Shown piece by piece: positions 2,876-19,891 of a stretch of DNA of 64,000 nt. The stretch comes from Deltaproteobacteria bacterium. Its GTDB lineage: Bacteria > Desulfobacterota > Desulfobacteria > Desulfobacterales > Desulfosarcinaceae. The notes under the pieces were generated by a model that was given only the letters and a program-made list of their open reading frames with translations, was not told the origin of the DNA and did not search any database. The DNA is taken from assembly GCA_021824175.1 (NCBI GenBank), contig JAKALP010000008.1:124001-188000 (forward strand), read 5' to 3'. The position numbers and the translations under genes are program-made. Numbering within the stretch: the first letter of the stretch is position 1; the number at the start of each line of letters is the position of its first letter.

Positions 2876-3140
2876 ATGAGTAGGGGTGTTTTTCACCACC
2901 AGGTCGATTTCTTTCTTGTCGGATAAAAATCTTGTCCTGTCATGGTGTTACTCAATTCATAACGGCTCGTCTGAAGCGTTTTTTAGATTTGTTCACTCTT
3001 TAAACCCTTTTGGTGGCATATGGCTTGCAGAGACCCTCGTAACCCCGAATCGAAAAAAAATCTTCACCCCAACCAGATGGAGGTCCGACGTGCAACCAAT
3101 CGCGGCGAGTCAACCCCCCAATGCTGAGAATGTACATTGC

Positions 3141-4166
3141 ATGAGCAACCTTTCTGGTCATGAAACTCTATCGCCGCAGATCGGTTTTCAAGGCGTGGTC
3201 GGCAAGAGCCGGCCCATGCGGGAAGTCTTCCGCATGATCGAGCGCGTGGCCGACAGTGACAGTACAGTGCTTATTAATGGAGAAACCGGAACGGGCAAGG
3301 GCCTGGTGGCCAAAGCGATCCATTTGAATTCCTACCGCAAGGACAAACCCTTCGTGGCCATCAATTGCGGCGCCATTCCCGAAAATCTCCTCGAGAGTGA
3401 GCTCTTTGGGCATGTCAAAGGAGCCTTCACCGGCGCTACTGCGGCCAAGGTCGGAAAGTTTGAAGTGGCTGACGGCGGCACTATCTTTCTGGACGAGATC
3501 GGTGACATGAGCCCGGACCTGCAAGTCAAGGTGCTCAAGGTGCTCGAGGAAAGGGAATTCGAACCGGTCGGCGGCTGCAAATCTATTAAAGTGGATGTGC
3601 GCATCATCGCCGCTACACACCGCGATTTGGAAGAAGAAGTCCAGAAAGGCAATTTCCGCGAAGATCTTTTTTATCGACTCTATGTCATTCCCATTCAATT
3701 GCCTTCACTCAGCGAACGGCGCGTGGATATCCCCCTGCTCACCCATTACTTCCTGAACAAACTGAACATGGATAAAAACGCCCGGATCAGCGGTATCAGT
3801 TCAGACGCCATGGAGCTGCTGATGCAGTATGCGTGGCCGGGCAATGTGCGTGAGCTGGCCAATATGCTCGAACGCTTGGTGGTGCTAAAAGCAGACGGCG
3901 AAATTCAGGTCGACGATTTGCCGGCCAAGCTGCGACTTGATTCCATTGATGAATCGGACGATGCCACTTTTGCGGTGTCCTGCCCCGAACTGGGCACGGA
4001 AGGCATTTGTTTGAACACCGCCGTCAGCGAGTTTGAAAAGAATCTTATTTATCAATCTCTTGAAAAGACCGATTGGGTCAAAAACAAGGCCGCCAAATTG
4101 TTGCAGGTCAAGCGTACGACCCTGGTTGAAAAGATCAAACGATACGATTTGCAAAAATGCGCTTAA
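3141..4166 (+). CDS. FleQ/FlrA-like sigma-54 activator lacking the N-terminal domain
   Basis: Bacterial enhancer-binding protein, 341 residues from ATG 3141. It begins almost directly with the AAA+ domain: Walker A GETGTGKG at about 47-54, the sigma-54 contact motif GAFTGA at 94-99, Walker B TIFLDEIGD at about 114-122, and W-P-G-N-V-R-E-L near 235. The C-terminal Fis-type helix-turn-helix contains R-T-T-L-V-E-K-I, closely resembling the FleQ/FlrA ending rather than generic NtrC. It therefore probably works as the flagellar master activator, without a FleQ or receiver domain. An earlier in-frame GTG (2886) would add 85 residues of unusual composition, which I reject; no clear ribosome binding site supports either start. 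It is followed 33 bases later by the FliH-like gene. Confidence 0.82.
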   Translation: MSNLSGHETLSPQIGFQGVVGKSRPMREVFRMIERVADSDSTVLINGETGTGKGLVAKAIHLNSYRKDKPFVAINCGAIPENLLESELFGHVKGAFTGATAAKVGKFEVADGGTIFLDEIGDMSPDLQVKVLKVLEEREFEPVGGCKSIKVDVRIIAATHRDLEEEVQKGNFREDLFYRLYVIPIQLPSLSERRVDIPLLTHYFLNKLNMDKNARISGISSDAMELLMQYAWPGNVRELANMLERLVVLKADGEIQVDDLPAKLRLDSIDESDDATFAVSCPELGTEGICLNTAVSEFEKNLIYQSLEKTDWVKNKAAKLLQVKRTTLVEKIKRYDLQKCA

Positions 4167-4199: not shown

Positions 4200-4910
4200 A
4201 TGATAAAAAGCCAGCCCAGTGCACCCGGTGATAAAGCGCGCGACTTTCGTTGCATGCCGTTTTCGAGCTCCTCGGCAACCCCAGCTGAAAAAGGGGGTGA
4301 TGCCTGTACCTTATTTAAGCCTCTGTTCAGCTGCGCCGGAGAAAGTGGCTCTGCCGCGGCAAAGGCCAAGAAAGATCCCGCGATTCGCATGGCCGAGGCC
4401 CGGGATAATGGATTGGAAAAGGGCTTGAAATGCGGGTGTGAAGAAGCGCTGGCCATGGGACGCGCATCGTTGCGGCCCGGTCTGCGCGCTTTTATTCAAA
4501 CACTCAATTCCCTTGGACATCAAACGGAACAGATCAAAACGCACGTTAGCGCCGGTATCCTGGTGCTGGCCTTGGAGGTCGTCCGGCAGATCCTGGGCGA
4601 GGAGTGTAGCATAGGGTTGGAGGAGCTCTCGGCTCTTAAGGAAAGTCTTGGTGTTGCTCTAACCGATGCCAATCGATTGGGATGTGCCTTGCATCCCGAT
4701 GACCTGACAGAGCTTCAGTCCCTCGTGGCAGCGGATGAGCTATGCTGGCCCTGCCTTTCCGCGGTCGATTTCCTTGCCGATCCTTCCCTGCAGCCAGGCG
4801 AAGTACTGCACCAGGAGCAAGCCCGCCAAAGCGAAGCGCTCGACGCCACTCTAATAGAGGCGTTGACCTCTATCTTCTCAAATCATTTCAGTGATCGCTC
4901 AGCACAGTAA
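4200..4910 (+). CDS. FliH-like protein (second FliH)
   Basis: A 236-residue protein with FliH/YscL features. After a low-complexity N-terminus comes the typical glycine-spaced helix (A-R-D-N-G-L-E-K-G-L-K-C-G) at about 67-80. A helical region follows. The C-terminal FliH module then shows H-P-D-D-L near 167 and V-D-F-L-A-D-P-S-L-Q-P-G-E-V leading into a final helix. FliH forms dimers that bind FliI ATPase and its C-ring docking site. A second FliH module is fused to FliI further on (10958-12931), so this free protein could be the second FliH chain of the complex or serve another export role. It sits between two sigma-54 activator genes rather than with fliI. The assignment to the FliH family is good; its exact role is inferred. 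Confidence 0.75.
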   Translation: MIKSQPSAPGDKARDFRCMPFSSSSATPAEKGGDACTLFKPLFSCAGESGSAAAKAKKDPAIRMAEARDNGLEKGLKCGCEEALAMGRASLRPGLRAFIQTLNSLGHQTEQIKTHVSAGILVLALEVVRQILGEECSIGLEELSALKESLGVALTDANRLGCALHPDDLTELQSLVAADELCWPCLSAVDFLADPSLQPGEVLHQEQARQSEALDATLIEALTSIFSNHFSDRSAQ

Positions 4911-5350: not shown

Positions 5351-6712
5351 ATGGACAAGGCCGTCATCGGCATATTGGAAAGCGGGACTCAGCTCTACGA
5401 CAAGTATGCGGGAAGTATAATGAAAGGTGGGCTTGGGGTCCAACGGCTGTCTCCTGCCCTGGACTTTTCTTCTGAACTGGCAACGCGCCGCTGTGATGTG
5501 TGGTTGGTCACTGATCCTTTACGTAACGCTCGCGCGATCGATGTGCTGAATAGTCTAAAGAAGAATGGCGTCGATGTGCCCATCGTCTTTGTGGCTGCCG
5601 ACGCCTCGGTCCGCGAAGCGGTGGAAGCGCTTCATGGGGGCGCCAATGATTATCTATTGATCTCCGATGATCCCGATCTGCTGATGAAGCGCATCGAGCA
5701 TATCCTCCGAGTTAATGAAAAACAGCCTCAGGCGACCCAGGACGGCACGGCGTGTCCCCGGATCATCAGTGCTTGCCCGGCCATGGTGCAGTTATTGGAG
5801 ATGTCTCGACGCATCGCCCCCTCGGCCGCAACCGTGCTCATCCAAGGGGAGAGCGGGACCGGCAAGGAGTTGCTGGCGCGCTATATTCACACCCATAGCG
5901 GGCGAGCCAAATATGGGTTCTTGGCCATGAACTGCGCCGCTTTGCCTGACACCCTGGCTGAGAGTGAGCTTTTCGGTTATGAACGCGGCGCATTTACAGG
6001 CGCGGTCCAACGAAAACCTGGTAAATTCGAGCTGGCCCATCAGGGCACGCTTCTGTTGGATGAAATCAGCGAGATGCCGCTGGCGTTGCAGGCCAAGCTG
6101 TTGCGGGTGCTTCAGGAAAAAGAGGTGGACCGGTTAGGCGGCCAAAAAGCCGTGCCCGTAGATGTGCGCGTGGTTGCCACGACCAATCGCGATCTGGGAC
6201 AGATGGTTCAGCAAGGCAAGTTTCGCAAAGATCTTTACTACCGGCTGCGTGTCGTTCCCATCATCATACCGCCGCTCAGGGACCGTCAGCCGGATCTTCC
6301 CCTTCTGATAGAATATTTTTTAAAAAAGCATACCGCCCCTGGAGAGCCGCCCCTTTTCTTTAATCATGCCGCCATGGAAAAGATGCAACAGTGGCCATGG
6401 CCCGGCAATGTGCGCGAATTGGAAAATACCATCGAGCGGGCCGCATTAATCCGAACCGGGTCCCAGATAGGCCCTGAGCTGCTGCTTTTGGATGAAACCC
6501 CACAAAACGAAGATTATGCCAAAACCGCGGAGCTGGTCGGTCTCACCGTCAGAGAACTGGAAGAGCGCCTGATCATACAAACCTTGCGGCATGTAAACCA
6601 CAATCGCACCCACGCCGCCGAGATGCTCGGCATCAGCATCCGCACCTTGCGCAATAAGCTGCGGGAATACCGCGAGGGCGAAGATCTCCTGCCCGAGGCC
6701 GCTGAGGGCTGA
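5351..6712 (+). CDS. FlrC-like sigma-54 activator with degenerate receiver domain
   Basis: A 453-residue enhancer-binding protein: receiver-like domain (1-120), AAA+ domain (140-375) and Fis-type helix-turn-helix (about 405-440). Walker A GESGTGKE (166-173) and GAFTGA (213-218) are canonical, so sigma-54 activation should be intact. The receiver has lost key residues: the acidic pair after strand 1 is E-S (10-11), the phospho-acceptor position is T54 with an Asp only at 55, and the conserved Lys is I104. It is therefore probably not phosphorylated in the normal way, and no FlrB/FleS-type kinase gene is adjacent. It most likely drives the flgB operon that starts just downstream. ATG 5351 is preceded by GGGAG. 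Symbol withheld because FlrC and FlgR types cannot be told apart here. Confidence 0.83.
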   Translation: MDKAVIGILESGTQLYDKYAGSIMKGGLGVQRLSPALDFSSELATRRCDVWLVTDPLRNARAIDVLNSLKKNGVDVPIVFVAADASVREAVEALHGGANDYLLISDDPDLLMKRIEHILRVNEKQPQATQDGTACPRIISACPAMVQLLEMSRRIAPSAATVLIQGESGTGKELLARYIHTHSGRAKYGFLAMNCAALPDTLAESELFGYERGAFTGAVQRKPGKFELAHQGTLLLDEISEMPLALQAKLLRVLQEKEVDRLGGQKAVPVDVRVVATTNRDLGQMVQQGKFRKDLYYRLRVVPIIIPPLRDRQPDLPLLIEYFLKKHTAPGEPPLFFNHAAMEKMQQWPWPGNVRELENTIERAALIRTGSQIGPELLLLDETPQNEDYAKTAELVGLTVRELEERLIIQTLRHVNHNRTHAAEMLGISIRTLRNKLREYREGEDLLPEAAEG

Positions 6713-9983: not shown

Positions 9984-10958
9984 ATGATGGACACCAAACA
10001 ACTCAAAGGCTCCTTGAAAGTGGCAATCCTGACCAAAGCGGTGGGGGGTGACGCCACGCGGACCATCCTGGATCGCTTCTCTGCCGATGAGCGCCAATTG
10101 ATCGCCAAGCTGCAATCCAAAATCGGTGCGTTGCCGAAAAGTCTCATTGACGGTGTGGCTCAAGATTTCGTGCAGTCCAGCGGAATTCCCATCCAGTTGC
10201 TGCAGCCGGGCGCGACCAAGGAAGAAGGTGAGGCGGCCAAGGAGACTAAAAAGGGGCACCCCAAATCCACCCTGGAGGCCATCCAGGATATCGAGCCCAA
10301 TCAGCTGATACAGCTGATCCGTGACGAACATCCGCAAACCATCGCGTTAATTCTGGTCCATTTGGAGCCGGCTACGGCCAGCGAAATTCTAGCCCGCCTG
10401 CCGGATCAGACCATGACCGATGTCGCGCTGCGCATCGCGAGTCTGAATAAGGTTCAAGCCGGCATGGTCAAAGAGGTGGACAAGGTATTTGAAGAGATCC
10501 TGAAGAACAAGGATGGCATGAACACCCAGGAGGCCGGTGGCGTCGGTCGGCTGGCCGAGCTTCTCAACCATATTGACGGCAGCACGGTGGAACAGATTAT
10601 TGACGAAATTGAAGAAAATAACGCGGACCTGGCTGAAGAGATCAAGCAGATGATGTTTGTCTTCGATGACTTGGTCCTGGTCGATGACAAGGGATTGCAA
10701 AAAGTGTTGCGCAATGTAGAATCTCAAGAATTGGCGGTGGCCTTGAAAGCCGCCACCGAAGAGGTCAAGCAGAAGATCTTCCGGAATATGTCGCAGCGCG
10801 CCGCCGAGATACTCAAGGAAGAAATGGAAGTCTCCGGTGCGGTGCGGATGAAGGATGTCACCAGCGCTCAGCAAAAGATCACCCGTATCGTGCAGGAGCT
10901 GGAGCGCAAGGGCGAAGTCATCATTGCCGGTCGTGGCGGCGAAGAATTTGTGGGCTAA
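9984..10958 (+). CDS. fliG: FliG, rotor/switch protein
   Basis: Rotor protein of 324 residues at the cytoplasmic face of the MS ring; it transmits stator torque and sets rotation direction. The middle domain has the EHPQ motif (D-E-H-P-Q-T-I-A-L-I-L, about 113-123). The C-terminal torque helix has the charged residues F-D-D-L-V-L-V-D-D-K near 227-236. The N-terminal FliF-binding domain is recognisable but divergent. A second Met directly follows the first. The stop overlaps the start of the fliH-fliI gene as TAATG, so translation is coupled. Confidence 0.95.
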   Translation: MMDTKQLKGSLKVAILTKAVGGDATRTILDRFSADERQLIAKLQSKIGALPKSLIDGVAQDFVQSSGIPIQLLQPGATKEEGEAAKETKKGHPKSTLEAIQDIEPNQLIQLIRDEHPQTIALILVHLEPATASEILARLPDQTMTDVALRIASLNKVQAGMVKEVDKVFEEILKNKDGMNTQEAGGVGRLAELLNHIDGSTVEQIIDEIEENNADLAEEIKQMMFVFDDLVLVDDKGLQKVLRNVESQELAVALKAATEEVKQKIFRNMSQRAAEILKEEMEVSGAVRMKDVTSAQQKITRIVQELERKGEVIIAGRGGEEFVG

Positions 10959-12931
10959 TGACCAAACAAGATCAATACAAATCCTACTGTTTTCCCGAAA
11001 TCAAAGGCCATGACCTTGAAGGCGAGGGTGGCGGCGGTCAACGGCCGGAGAATTCGGAAACTTTAGAGCAGAAACTGGCCGCCGCTGAGGCCTGCGCCTA
11101 TGAAGAGGGCCGAGCCCAAGGGCGGGAACAGACGCTGGCAAGTAGCAAAGCCAAAGTAGAACGTCTCAATCGTTTGCTGGGCCAGACTCGTATCGGCCTG
11201 GAAGAACATCAAGCCCGGACCCGGAGCCACTGTGAGGAAGACACGGTGCGACTGGCTCTGGCTTTGGCCAAAGATATCCTTGATTTTGAAATTACGCGCC
11301 ATCCTGAAAAGATTGAACGAATTACCCGCAAGGCGCTGGACATGACCGCCGGCCAGGAAAAAGTAAAGATTAAAGCCCATGCCGCCGAAGCAGAAACCAT
11401 TCGCGCGATTTTGCGGGAAAAAATGCCTGGCAACGATAGTTGGCGCGATTCCTATCAGATCATTTCCGATGCTTCAATGCCCAAGGGCGGATGTGTGATC
11501 GAAACTGACTTTGGTATTATTGACTCCCGCATTGAGCAACAGCTGGCCGCCATCAGCGATAAACTCTTTGTGAAAGTGGCTGAAGCTAAGGCTGCGGTCC
11601 GTGAAGAGCCAGGCAACTTCGCAACGCTGGAACACTATCGACAAAGCGTTACTTCCACGGAACCCATCAAAATATATGGCCATGTGACCAAAGTGGTGGG
11701 CCTGGTCGTCGAAGCCAATGGCCCGGCCACTCAATTGGGCTGCATCTGCGATATCCATGGGACTGAAAAAGAGCGGCCGGTCACGGCCGAAGTGTTGGGG
11801 TTCCGCGACCGTACCGTCCTAATGATGCCTCTGGAAGAGATTCGCACCATCGGGCCCGGCAGCCGGGTGGTGGCCCGCCAGGACAAGGCCTCAATCGCGG
11901 TGGGGCCGGAATTGCTCGGCCGCGTGATCAATGGATTGGGCAATCCCATTGATGGACGAGGGCCATTAAACCTCGAAGGGCAATATCCTATTTATGCCAC
12001 CCCCATCAATCCTTTGCTGCGGCAGCGCATCCGTAATCCTTTGGATCTAGGCATCCGGGCGATCAATGGTTTGCTGACCGTAGGGTGTGGTCAACGCATG
12101 GGGATTTTCGCCGGGTCAGGCGTGGGCAAGAGCGTGCTGATGGGCATGATCGCTCGTAAAAGCAGCGCGGATGTGAATGTCATCGCTCTGATCGGCGAGC
12201 GTGGCCGTGAACTCAACGACTTTATTGAAAAGGACTTGGGAGAAGAAGGGCTGAAGAAATCAGTGGTGGTCGTGGCCACTTCGGATCATCTGCCTCTGGT
12301 GCGGGTGCGCGGCGCATTTGTGGCCACCGCCATTGCCGAGTATTTCCGCGATCAGGGCATGACGGTCAATTTGATGATGGATTCGCTGACCCGTTTTGCC
12401 ATGGCCCAACGTGAAATCGGGTTGGCTCTGGGTGAGCCGCCTACCACCAAAGGGTATACGCCGTCGGTTTTTACTTTACTGCCCAAATTGCTCGAACGCG
12501 CCGGCACTTCCGATCACAATGGGTCCATCACCGGCCTCTATACGGTCCTGGTGGAAGGCGACGACATGAATGAGCCCATTGCCGATGCCGCCCGTTCCAT
12601 CCTTGACGGCCACATTGTGCTCAGTCGGGATCTGGCCCATCACAATCACTACCCGGCCATTGATGTATTGCGCAGTATCAGCAGAGTGATGGAAGATATC
12701 GCCACGCTCCAGCATAAACATAATGCCGGCAGGATGAAGGAACTTTTGGCCGTCTATCGCAAGTCCGAAGATTTAATCAACATCGGCGCTTATGTGCCCG
12801 GCACCAATGCCGGCATTGACCGCGCCATGGCCAAGATCGACGGGATCAATGGTTATCTAAGGCAAGACATTAACGAAAGCGTCAACTTCGAACAGAGTCT
12901 CCAGCAACTGGATCAGGTAATGAATGGGTAG
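10958..12931 (+). CDS. FliH-FliI fusion: export regulator joined to flagellar export ATPase
   Basis: A single uninterrupted reading frame of 657 residues. Residues 1 to about 205 are FliH: Gly-spaced helix (E-E-G-R-A-Q-G-R-E, 49-57), coiled helix, and the C-terminal FliH module ending G-G-C-V-I-E-T-D-F-G-I-I-D near 177-189. From about 222 the FliI sequence begins (L-E-H-Y-R-Q-S) and runs to the end: Walker A GSGVGKS (386-392), LIGERGREL (411-419), Walker B LMMDSLTRFAMAQRE (472-486). The FliI part alone has the normal length of about 435 residues, including its N-terminal FliH-binding helix. FliI hydrolyses ATP to help unfold and deliver export substrates; FliH normally binds it as a separate dimer. 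Here the ratio would be fixed at 1:1. The gene overlaps fliG and is followed by fliJ. A separate FliI start inside the frame cannot be excluded, but I see no strong ribosome binding site near the junction. Confidence 0.93.
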   Translation: MTKQDQYKSYCFPEIKGHDLEGEGGGGQRPENSETLEQKLAAAEACAYEEGRAQGREQTLASSKAKVERLNRLLGQTRIGLEEHQARTRSHCEEDTVRLALALAKDILDFEITRHPEKIERITRKALDMTAGQEKVKIKAHAAEAETIRAILREKMPGNDSWRDSYQIISDASMPKGGCVIETDFGIIDSRIEQQLAAISDKLFVKVAEAKAAVREEPGNFATLEHYRQSVTSTEPIKIYGHVTKVVGLVVEANGPATQLGCICDIHGTEKERPVTAEVLGFRDRTVLMMPLEEIRTIGPGSRVVARQDKASIAVGPELLGRVINGLGNPIDGRGPLNLEGQYPIYATPINPLLRQRIRNPLDLGIRAINGLLTVGCGQRMGIFAGSGVGKSVLMGMIARKSSADVNVIALIGERGRELNDFIEKDLGEEGLKKSVVVVATSDHLPLVRVRGAFVATAIAEYFRDQGMTVNLMMDSLTRFAMAQREIGLALGEPPTTKGYTPSVFTLLPKLLERAGTSDHNGSITGLYTVLVEGDDMNEPIADAARSILDGHIVLSRDLAHHNHYPAIDVLRSISRVMEDIATLQHKHNAGRMKELLAVYRKSEDLINIGAYVPGTNAGIDRAMAKIDGINGYLRQDINESVNFEQSLQQLDQVMNG

Positions 12932-13087: not shown

Positions 13088-13531
13088 ATGGCCTTTCAAT
13101 TCAAACTCGAAGCAGTACGGCGCTATCGCCAATTTGAAGAAGATCGTTGCCAGCGGGAGTTTGCCGATGCCCAACGCCAGGTTGAACAGGCCAAAGCCAT
13201 ATTGGCGGCCATGATCGCCCGGCGAACCCAGACCGAAGAAGATTTCAGACAGGGCCAAGCCGATGGTGAAAGCGCGGCCCAGGCCGCCATGTATCGCGGA
13301 TTTCTGGAACGCCTGGGTGACGAAATTGAAACTCAACAAAACCATTTAGCCAGCGCTGAAAAAGCCTGTGAAGAAAAACGCCAAGCGTTATTGGAAGCCA
13401 TGAAGAAGCGCAAAACCATCGACCGTTTGAAAGAGAAAGGCGAGCAGGCCTTTATGGCTGAACTCAATAGTGAAGAGCAGAAGTTTATCAACGAGATTGC
13501 CATTAACCGACATATACTTAAAAACCGATAA
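13088..13531 (+). CDS. fliJ: FliJ, flagellar export chaperone/ATPase stalk
   Basis: A 147-residue, almost wholly helical, charged protein with the FliJ pattern: F-Q-F-K-L-E-A-V-R-R-Y-R near the N-terminus, then two long antiparallel coiled-coil helices. FliJ sits in the centre of the FliI ring like the gamma subunit of F-ATPase and contacts FlhA. Its place directly after the fliH-fliI gene supports this. A run of family C repeats fills the gap before it, ending right at the start codon, so no good ribosome binding site is visible. Confidence 0.85.
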   Translation: MAFQFKLEAVRRYRQFEEDRCQREFADAQRQVEQAKAILAAMIARRTQTEEDFRQGQADGESAAQAAMYRGFLERLGDEIETQQNHLASAEKACEEKRQALLEAMKKRKTIDRLKEKGEQAFMAELNSEEQKFINEIAINRHILKNR

Positions 13532-17665: not shown

Positions 17666-18436
17666 ATGGATTTAGCCACACTACTCGGAATCATGGTGGC
17701 CAGCGGGCTAGTAATTGTTTCCATTATAATGGGCGGTTCCGGTTCCTGGTTTATCAACTATCCTTCGCTCATGATTGTCTTTGGCGGCACCATGGGAGCC
17801 ACCTTGATCAATTACCCGCTCGTTGACGTGATCAGTATGTTCAAGGTTACAAAGAATGCCTTCCGGCATCGAACCCCCAATCCGCTGGCGTTGATCCCGA
17901 TCATGGTGGATTTGGCCAAACGGGCCCGCAAGGAAGGCATCGTGGCTTTTGATAACTACATCAAACAGATTGAAGATCCTTTCATGGCCCGCGGCTTTCG
18001 CATGGCCATGGACGGCATGGAAGGTGATGCCATCGAAGAGGTGCTCAGCACCGAGATCATGTGGATAGAAGAGCGCCATCGTCTGGGCGCCGAGATTTAT
18101 ACCACCATGGGCACCTTTGCGCCGGCGGTGGGCATGCTGGGCACTATCATCGGTCTGGTGCAAATGCTGATGCAAATGCGCGATCCTTCGGCCTTGGGCG
18201 CCCCCATGGCTGTGGCGTTGCTGACCACATTCTACGGTACGGTCCTGTCATATCTGCTTTTTCTCCCCATTGCCGGCAAGCTGCGGGTGCGCAGTAAACA
18301 GGAGATATTGACCAAGCAGATGGTCATGCATGGCATTCTCGCCATTCATTCCGGTGAGAACCATCGCGTGGTGGCCGAAAAACTCAAGGCTTTTCTCTCT
18401 CCGACCGCCCGCTCGGCCAATAAGGATGGGTTCTGA
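17666..18436 (+). CDS. motA: MotA, stator ion-channel subunit (first stator)
   Basis: Stator protein of 256 residues with four membrane helices. The last two (about 150-215) carry the conserved Pro residues in F-A-P-A-V-G-M-L-G-T-I-I-G-L-V and L-F-L-P-I-A-G. The cytoplasmic loop (about 75-145) holds the charged residues that act on FliG. Start at ATG 17666, from which the protein begins with a membrane helix as usual; a longer frame upstream crosses the promoter. It is followed by two motB genes, unlike the usual single partner. The coupled ion (H+ or Na+) cannot be decided from the sequence alone. Confidence 0.93.
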   Translation: MDLATLLGIMVASGLVIVSIIMGGSGSWFINYPSLMIVFGGTMGATLINYPLVDVISMFKVTKNAFRHRTPNPLALIPIMVDLAKRARKEGIVAFDNYIKQIEDPFMARGFRMAMDGMEGDAIEEVLSTEIMWIEERHRLGAEIYTTMGTFAPAVGMLGTIIGLVQMLMQMRDPSALGAPMAVALLTTFYGTVLSYLLFLPIAGKLRVRSKQEILTKQMVMHGILAIHSGENHRVVAEKLKAFLSPTARSANKDGF

Positions 18437-18437
18437 C

Positions 18438-19157
18438 ATGTTGGCCAAGAACAACAAATTGGTGAGTGGCAAACGCAACAATGTGGATAACTTTGCCAAC
18501 GGCTGGCAAGTGGTCTACACCGGCTTTGTCCTGATCATGTTGACATTTTTTGTACTACTGACTTCGTTTGCGACCATGACGCCTTCAAAAATTACTCGAT
18601 TTGTGGGCTCGTTTTCAAAGGCGGTCAATGTGCTCCAGCATGGCAAGAGTATTGAGAGCGGCCACGGCATCAAGGATGTTGAGGTGAGCATAGTTCCGCG
18701 GGAGAATTTGATTGCGGATCTCTTCGAGCAGGTTCGCAATGTGAGCGCCGATGTCCATTTAGATATGGCCGAGTTGCGGCCCACCGCCCAAGGCGTGGAG
18801 ATGACGTTGAAGGATACGCTTTTGTTTGACAGCGGCCAAGCCAACTTCACGGCGGGTGCCTATCCGCGGCTTGAGAAGATCGCCCAGTTGATCCGTCGGC
18901 TGGATGTTCCGGTGGAGATTGAAGGGCATACGGACGACCGGCCCATCCACAATCGTTACTTCTCTTCAAATTGGGAACTTTCAACCACACGGGCCGTCGC
19001 GGTATTGCGCTATTTCATCGAAAAGGAAAAGATTAACCCGCAGCATTTGTCCGCGGCGGGCTTCAGTCAATTTCGTCCCCTGGTGAGCGGCGAGTCTTTG
19101 GGCGATTGGGCCCTCAACCGCAGAGTTAGTTTTGTCTTTAACGTTGACCGGCAGTAA
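18438..19157 (+). CDS. MotB-like stator protein lacking the ion-carrying Asp (motB1)
   Basis: OmpA/MotB family protein of 239 residues with one N-terminal membrane helix (about 23-45) and a C-terminal peptidoglycan-binding domain (V-E-I-E-G-H-T-D-D-R-P near 160, then N-R-R-V-S-F at the end). When its helix is aligned without gaps to the next gene product and to the third MotB of this window, the essential Asp is Gly29 here (W-Q-V-V-Y-T-G against W-M-T-T-F-N-D). Ordinary MotB needs this Asp to carry the ion. The protein may therefore be a structural or regulatory partner, perhaps pairing with motB2 in a mixed dimer. The gene lies one base after motA and overlaps motB2 by one base. Confidence 0.88.
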   Translation: MLAKNNKLVSGKRNNVDNFANGWQVVYTGFVLIMLTFFVLLTSFATMTPSKITRFVGSFSKAVNVLQHGKSIESGHGIKDVEVSIVPRENLIADLFEQVRNVSADVHLDMAELRPTAQGVEMTLKDTLLFDSGQANFTAGAYPRLEKIAQLIRRLDVPVEIEGHTDDRPIHNRYFSSNWELSTTRAVAVLRYFIEKEKINPQHLSAAGFSQFRPLVSGESLGDWALNRRVSFVFNVDRQ

Positions 19158-19891
19158 TGAAAGTCATGAAACTCATCCGACTCCAAAGAAACGCAAACAT
19201 ACAAGCCTCGGAAAATCCCTTGGCGTGGATGACCACCTTCAATGATCTGATGACCAATTTATTGGTCTTTTTCGTGCTTCTGTTTTCAATGGGCAGCCTG
19301 GATGGCTCTCGGTTCAGCCATTTCCAAAAGGGGCTTCAAAGCGCCATGGGCGTATTGAACGAAGGCCGCAATTCAGCGGAAGGCGTGATCAGCGACAAAC
19401 CCTCAAATGCCACCAAACCTGCTGAAGAATCAAAGCCTGAGGCGGCTCCACGGGAGGATTTCCAAACCTTGGCCCAGGCTCAAGGCTTGGAAGCCGTGTA
19501 TACGGCCAAGGGCTTGCACCTGACTTTAAATGACGAGCTGCTATTTTCTTCGGGCAGCGCCAAACTGACCCCACAAGGATTTTCCATGCTGGATAAGATC
19601 GCCGCCGTGATCAAGCCTCTCAATCGCGCCATTCGCGTCGAGGGGCATACCGATGATCGCCCCATTGCGACCGAGCGTTACCCATCCAACTGGGAGTTGT
19701 CCACGGCCCGGGCGATCAGCGTCGTCAATTACTTTATCTCCCGGGGGGGGATTGCGCCGTACACCTTGTCCGCCGTAGGTTATGGCAGCGTCAAACCGCG
19801 GATGCCCAATGACACGGATCAGCATCGGGCCATGAACCGGCGCGTTGAGATCATTTTAGGGCCAACCAATCCCGGCCAAAGCGGGACATGA
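19157..19891 (+). CDS. motB: MotB, stator protein with intact Asp (motB2)
   Basis: MotB of 244 residues. The membrane helix (about 24-46) keeps the essential Asp30 (W-M-T-T-F-N-D). A plug/linker region rich in Lys, Glu and Ala follows (about 75-100), then the OmpA-like peptidoglycan anchor (G-H-T-D-D-R-P, N-R-R-V-E-I). It would form the working ion channel with MotA. Coupled with motB1 through a TAATG overlap; fliL follows 19 bases on. An AGGGxATG-type context is absent, so it probably relies on coupling. Confidence 0.93.
   Translation: MKVMKLIRLQRNANIQASENPLAWMTTFNDLMTNLLVFFVLLFSMGSLDGSRFSHFQKGLQSAMGVLNEGRNSAEGVISDKPSNATKPAEESKPEAAPREDFQTLAQAQGLEAVYTAKGLHLTLNDELLFSSGSAKLTPQGFSMLDKIAAVIKPLNRAIRVEGHTDDRPIATERYPSNWELSTARAISVVNYFISRGGIAPYTLSAVGYGSVKPRMPNDTDQHRAMNRRVEIILGPTNPGQSGT

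Follow-up and report, generated by a model that had tools for sequence, protein, structure and literature searches.

FliH and FliI, the stalk protein and the ATPase of the flagellar export machinery, are encoded as one protein in ten genomes of a single family, and each of these genomes carries a second, stand-alone FliH gene, here termed FliH2. Together, the fused gene and the free gene likely represent a new version of a known machine, the FliH-FliI complex, whose stalk would be the product of two genes in these few relatives of sulfate reducers. The arrangement is described here from a window (the whole stretch of DNA analysed, 64,000 nucleotides) of a Desulfosarcinaceae genome (GenBank assembly GCA_021824175.1, contig JAKALP010000008.1).

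The fused fliH-fliI gene (10958-12931, + strand) opens with an ATG and runs for 657 codons, stop-free to its end. The 657-aa protein includes: (i) a FliH domain at residues 81-198 (11198-11551, +), which scores 67.7 bits against PF02108 (cut-off 24.1) when the whole protein is searched, (ii) a junction (11606-11656, +) and (iii) a FliI ATPase part at residues 223-655 (11624-12922, +), the span matched by NCBIfam fliI_yscN. The ATPase part is placed in FliI by its complete N-terminal, catalytic and C-terminal domains (ATP-synt_ab_N, PF02874, residues 243-305; ATP-synt_ab, PF00006, residues 365-575; T3SS_ATPase_C, PF18269, residues 585-653) and by its position in a flagellar export locus. It exceeds the FliI_clade2 cut-off (TIGR03497, residues 241-654, 654.2 bits versus 629.8) and is the sole FliI above the family cut-off in a profile search of the whole genome. 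The FliI half includes GSGVGKS, which we take to be the Walker A stretch. The fused FliH retains a GGCxIETxxGxxDxRIxxQL end, and of 9 sequences scanned, 7 have a glycine repeat in the FliH stalk. An FP at residues 12-13 is invariant across nine fused sequences and is at most suggestive of FliN/FlhA binding by the N-terminal end of the fused FliH. The uninterrupted frame with a FliH module and a complete FliI ATPase that an earlier note on this DNA had described is thus borne out by the Pfam and NCBIfam domains and by the 657 codons without a stop.

The AlphaFold2 model of the fusion, computed as a single chain, has a mean pLDDT of 89.1, with blocks of 67-95 across residues 31-210. The modelled parts are a long FliH helix (residues 56-114), a FliH C-domain, a short loop (217-223), the FliI N-terminal helix (224-233) and the FliI core. 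The FliH half includes both the helical stalk and the alpha/beta C-domain, while the loop and the retained FliI N-terminal helix form the junction. The best solved structural matches of the model are FliI of 5b0o and 2dpy. Similarly, the FliI half matches 5b0o FliI at E 2.9e-129, in an alignment that begins in the N-terminal helix of FliI. A single-sequence search of the PDB with the FliH half alone gave no match at E 0.1.

Genome searches for FliH-FliI fusions, a check proposed in the earlier note, find the open frame in ten genomes of the one family. Among the 30 genomes of the family survey, a full-length, stop-free fusion is present in nine, eight from g1, the genus of the window genome (G000, G126, G146, G147, G148, G152, G153 and G154), and one from g3 (G089). 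A further g1 genome, G149, is fused up to the end of its contig. Against the window protein, the remaining eight full-length fusions have 63-72% identity. In 13 genomes (G155-G161, G163, G166-G168, G170 and G171), fliI has a frame of its own, although that frame is itself broken in G156 and lacks its start in G160. The contigs of G151 and G169 end within the FliH part or directly behind it, where the fusion state is not readable, and no flagellar FliI is found in G029, G150, G162, G164 and G165. On a second contig of G089 (L066, G089:C259) lies an additional FliI-like, FliH-like and FliF-like set, which is possibly an injectisome-type system. The g104, g105, g106 and g2 relatives share the locus order flgBC-fliEFG-fliH-fliI-fliJ where it was read; fliH and fliI are two adjacent genes in these relatives, whereas here they are one.

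No fusion is seen outside the family in the order, phylum or other-phylum surveys, among the matches listed. The order survey covers 146 genomes, 77 with a FliH match, and frames of more than 600 codons at the FliH match occur only in G000, G126, G089 and G076. The G076 frame (879 codons) matches neither the FliH nor the FliI profile built for this work and is presumably a type I restriction methylase. The phylum survey took in 395 genomes, of which 239 match; among the matches listed, only G000 has a stop-free span over both parts, and 23 others cover both in frame with one to three stops. The phylum of G550 (labelled Aneurinibacillus) includes 199 genomes, 167 with FliH, and yields one suspect, G741, among about 150 matches listed; however, its 586-codon frame does not join the two genes, fliH being in another frame than fliI. 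The same holds for the 659-codon frame of L168, and fliH and fliI are likewise in separate frames in G222 and G403, which have long FliI frames. Other long FliI frames (e.g., G179, G297 and G342) were set aside, as the FliH frame is of another length. Among 80 named FliI loci from many phyla, two are fused, those of the metagenome-assembled genomes Deltaproteobacteria bacterium WY2.bin100 and Desulfobacteraceae bacterium SURF_4, both already in the family set. Of 450 matching plasmid records, two cover 80% of the query, and both have separately annotated fliH and fliI. Within these surveys, in which Pseudomonadota are hardly covered, and among the matches listed, the fusion is confined to one clade.

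In two unfused genomes of the family, G163 (L067) and G156 (L068), fliH and fliI share one frame and are parted by a single TGA. With the 23 in-frame spans among the phylum matches listed, these near-fusions mean that fusion by loss of a stop is close at hand in many lineages. Near-fusions of this kind could also lend some colour to the idea that two genes were joined by an error of sequencing or assembly, yet the identical open frame recurs in ten separate assemblies, with the divergence among full-length proteins given above, and an error is an extremely remote prospect. A stop or frameshift near 11570-11620, the weak point named in the earlier note, is very unlikely, since this frame is also open in nine further assemblies. 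The fusion is thus no artefact, because ten genomes of one family carry an open frame across the junction, and with both halves intact the view that it is no chance read-through holds as well.

The linker between FliH and FliI differs among genomes in sequence and length, and the frame is open in each. Such variability would suit a cell in which FliH and FliI are made as separate proteins by an internal start, or end as separate proteins by proteolysis of the linker, and which has in effect ordinary FliH and FliI. Several in-frame GTG, TTG or ATG codons near the junction, together with 4-base Shine-Dalgarno-like matches in single genomes (e.g., G152 and G149), point the same way. This outcome is nevertheless improbable: no in-frame start with a Shine-Dalgarno-like sequence at the junction is common to the ten genomes, the window has none there, and the frame stays open despite large divergence. 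The linker also has a dN/dS below 1 in each computable comparison. With dS near saturation in two of the pairs, dN/dS is 0.15-0.28 for the FliH part of the fusion (four pairs), 0.16-0.45 for the linker (three computable pairs of four) and 0.22-0.30 for FliH2 (four pairs). The fusion is therefore real and under selection, as it is kept in one frame in ten genomes with these dN/dS values.

The fused gene lies in an extended flagellar locus. Upstream, fliG (9984-10958, +; Pfam and NCBIfam) overlaps it by one base, the fliG stop and the ATG of the fusion being joined as TAATG, and translational coupling of the fusion to fliG is plausible because of this overlap. Downstream, the next gene is fliJ (13088-13531, +; Pfam and NCBIfam). 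Besides fliG and fliJ, Pfam identifies fliK, motA, two motB-like genes, flhB and flhA in the window, as well as an SRP54-type GTPase (flhF-like), a ParA-type gene, a sigma factor, flgF/G-like rod genes, flgI and flgK. From a reading of the translations, flgB, flgC, fliE, fliF, flgD, flgE and fliL to fliR are presumably also present. The two MotB-like genes are consecutive (18330-19157 and 19157-19891, each with MotB_plug and OmpA domains) and follow a single motA; the motor stator may use two different MotB chains.

A Pfam FliH search of the genome gives two matches, the second of which is the 236-aa FliH2 (4200-4910, +; PF02108, 33.5 bits versus the cut-off of 24.1). FliH2 sits 6 kb upstream of the fusion between two genes for sigma-54 activators assigned by Pfam, NtrC1 (2886-4166, +) just upstream and NtrC2 (5351-6712, +) downstream, and has the same neighbours in relatives. 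A FliH profile whose members are fused and ordinary FliH, with no FliH2 included, detects the window FliH2 among the open reading frames of the stretch at E 1.2e-13 and recovers all 12 FliH2 (ten from fused genomes and two from g2) at E <=1.7e-7 per stretch. The Pfam model is over its cut-off for FliH2 in six of the ten fused genomes (G000, G126, G149, G152, G153 and G154), falls below it in G147 (24.0 versus 24.1) and G148 (18.1), and gives no match in G089 and G146 or for the g2 copies of G169 and G170. A profile of the FliH2 family matches the solved FliH of 5b0o at E 1.3e-5. The FliH2 model is of modest quality (mean pLDDT 72.5), and its best Foldseek match is a 5b0o FliH chain (E 4.7e-4, probability 1.00), with TM-scores of only 0.30/0.46. 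Glycine repeats occur in all eight FliH2 proteins scanned, and the window copy has an AxxxGxxxGxxxGxxxA repeat, a type that excerpts of PMC2674601 associate with FliH. FliH2 is homologous to FliH. It diverges fast, with seven others only 22-34% identical to the window copy, and is without the GGCxIETxxGxxDxRIxxQL end. Matched stalk lengths of FliH and FliH2, as judged by eye from the models, were considered and the idea was dropped.

FliH2 is encoded in all ten fused genomes, directly after NtrC1 in these and in the two g2 genomes read. In G146, FliH2 (L096 5158-5757) adjoins NtrC1 on a contig other than that of the fusion and is truncated by a stop codon at 199 codons, so that the last part of the C-domain is missing; the fusion of this genome is intact. 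The fusion is not a precondition for FliH2: in g2 the gene occupies this slot as well, with separate fliH and fliI in G170 and a contig that ends after fliH in G169. The notion that FliH2 accompanies the fusion only is thereby ruled out. NtrC1 and NtrC2 are 891-1165 nt apart in those fused and g2 genomes that have FliH2 between these genes, and 235-742 nt in the eight unfused g104-g106 genomes with the slot read (G155, G156, G157, G160, G166, G167, G168 and G171). In none of these eight is a second FliH found outside the fliI-adjacent fliH region by either profile, including a widened profile run over all open reading frames of at least 50 codons; G156 gave an additional match, to another frame overlapping its fliH gene. 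Profile searches found no second FliH in G158, G159, G161 and G163, where the slot is partly covered (G159 by the narrower profile), or in G151, a sister of G146 with an assembly of about 600 contigs.

Two trees bear on the order of these events. In a tree of FliF, FliG and FliI (1283 columns), g1 and g3 group together with a support of 100 (11 tips including G151), g2 is their sister (100), and g106 (90), g105 (77) and g104 (82) follow. In a FliH tree, which is a guide only since the proteins are short and divergent, all 12 FliH2 form one clade with the g2 copies at its base (local support 0.936), and nine fused FliH parts group with the ordinary FliH of g2 (0.835). The simplest account is that FliH2 was gained before g2 split off and that a single fusion came later. 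The co-occurrence of FliH2 and the fusion counts as one event because there is only one fused clade. Another family, f51, also has two FliH genes, one of them upstream of NtrC2 (L089 1307-2020 in G100; L088 12803-13231 in G135), with fliI unfused. These proteins occupy the same slot as FliH2 and fall elsewhere in the weakly resolved FliH tree; their identity with FliH2 is not supported, and the second FliH of f51 is perhaps independent.

In Salmonella, according to excerpts of PMC9114704, each FliI carries a FliH homodimer, FliH being one gene and FliI separate. The same excerpts describe two FliH C-domains that differ in 5B0O: one binds the FliI N-terminal helix and the other a patch of arginines that includes Arg30. 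His242 of the fusion (codon 11681-11683, +) aligns with Arg30 of this FliH-binding basic patch. At this position the fused proteins have His in 11 of 12 rows and Leu in one (His in 9 of 10 genomes and Leu in one, two genomes being present twice), while the unfused proteins, a set that includes repeated genomes and from which four gapped rows were dropped, have Lys or Arg in 107 of 122 ungapped rows and His in none. With His or Leu at the Arg30 position, the surface for one FliH chain is altered in the fused clade, and the change represents one lineage.

In the earlier note, FliH and FliI were said to be locked at 1:1 by their fusion. This ratio does not follow, because the locus also encodes a separate FliH2, which is present in ten of ten fused genomes. 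In our reading, a 2:1 ratio of FliH to FliI by way of a mixed pair is possible and more likely than 1:1. A mixed stalk is the most economical interpretation since a ready second FliH is present in the same genomes, and the balance leans slightly towards an asymmetric stalk in which the fused FliH pairs with the free FliH2, with FliH, FliH2 and FliI at roughly 1:1:1. In such a complex, a short linker would join FliH to the FliI N-terminus, and FliI would still form the ATPase ring. The two jobs of FliH would be divided between two genes: the fused FliH, as one stalk chain, would bind in cis the FliI to which it is joined, and the free FliH2 would serve as the second chain and pair with the first along the helical, glycine-repeat stalk. 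With about two FliH chains per FliI, the peripheral stalk of the export ATPase would be asymmetric and in part covalent. FliH2 would have come first, in the ancestor common to g2, and the fusion would have followed once. A stricter form, in which the hetero-dimeric stalk is obligate, has about an even chance; here, duplication would first have split two unequal FliH roles, after which one copy was joined to FliI, the outcome being a fixed FliH-FliI/FliH2 unit with no loose cycling of FliH and FliI.

Several features weigh against the mixed stalk: FliH2 has lost the FliI-binding end, G146 keeps a truncated copy and regulators lie next to the gene, all of which fit another job for FliH2. The fused FliH domains may instead pair with one another, either on adjacent subunits within a FliI ring or across two rings, so that a ring has six FliH and three stalks, while FliH2 forms a separate homodimer with a different task, such as linking the state of export to the adjacent sigma-54 activators. 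The divergence of FliH2 and the glycine repeat that the fused FliH has in its own stalk are also in keeping with this arrangement. It is, however, somewhat unlikely, given that FliH2 is a FliH by profile, with a FliH-like modelled fold and glycine repeats, and that regulation alone leaves the retention of FliH2 in each of the ten fused genomes unexplained.

The fusion and the second FliH gene bear on how the export ATPase is understood. Work on FliH and FliI treats them as two proteins, and in the solved complex two identical FliH chains bind FliI in two ways; a lineage with two FliH genes, one of them joined to FliI, offers a natural way to test the roles of these chains. Models that need free exchange of FliI and FliH are constrained by the fusion because one FliH is unable to come off. 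Searches of the listings of open-licence PMC papers brought up neither a natural FliH-FliI fusion nor a FliH paralogue that pairs with one.

Among the closest known systems is the Salmonella FliH2-FliI complex (PDB 5B0O; there the name denotes two FliH chains), which has the same two components and whose chains are matched by the FliI half of the fusion and by the FliH2 model. In that complex, by the excerpts of PMC9114704, a single gene supplies both FliH chains and FliI is a protein of its own, whereas the present genomes fuse one FliH to FliI and encode another. A further likeness is to ATP synthase, in which, from excerpts of PMC9114704, the b plus delta subunits correspond to FliH. In some Mycobacterium and Gordonia, the excerpts of PMC5709465 describe a delta/b fusion beside a separate b subunit; there, peripheral-stalk subunits of a related rotary ATPase form a single chain, and another stalk gene remains free. 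The parts fused in these actinobacterial enzymes all belong to the stalk, whereas in the flagellar protein the stalk is fused to a subunit of the catalytic ring, and the likeness is one of working, not of membership. The fusion nonetheless parallels the stalk fusions of ATP synthase, consistent with a shared logic of the two machines.
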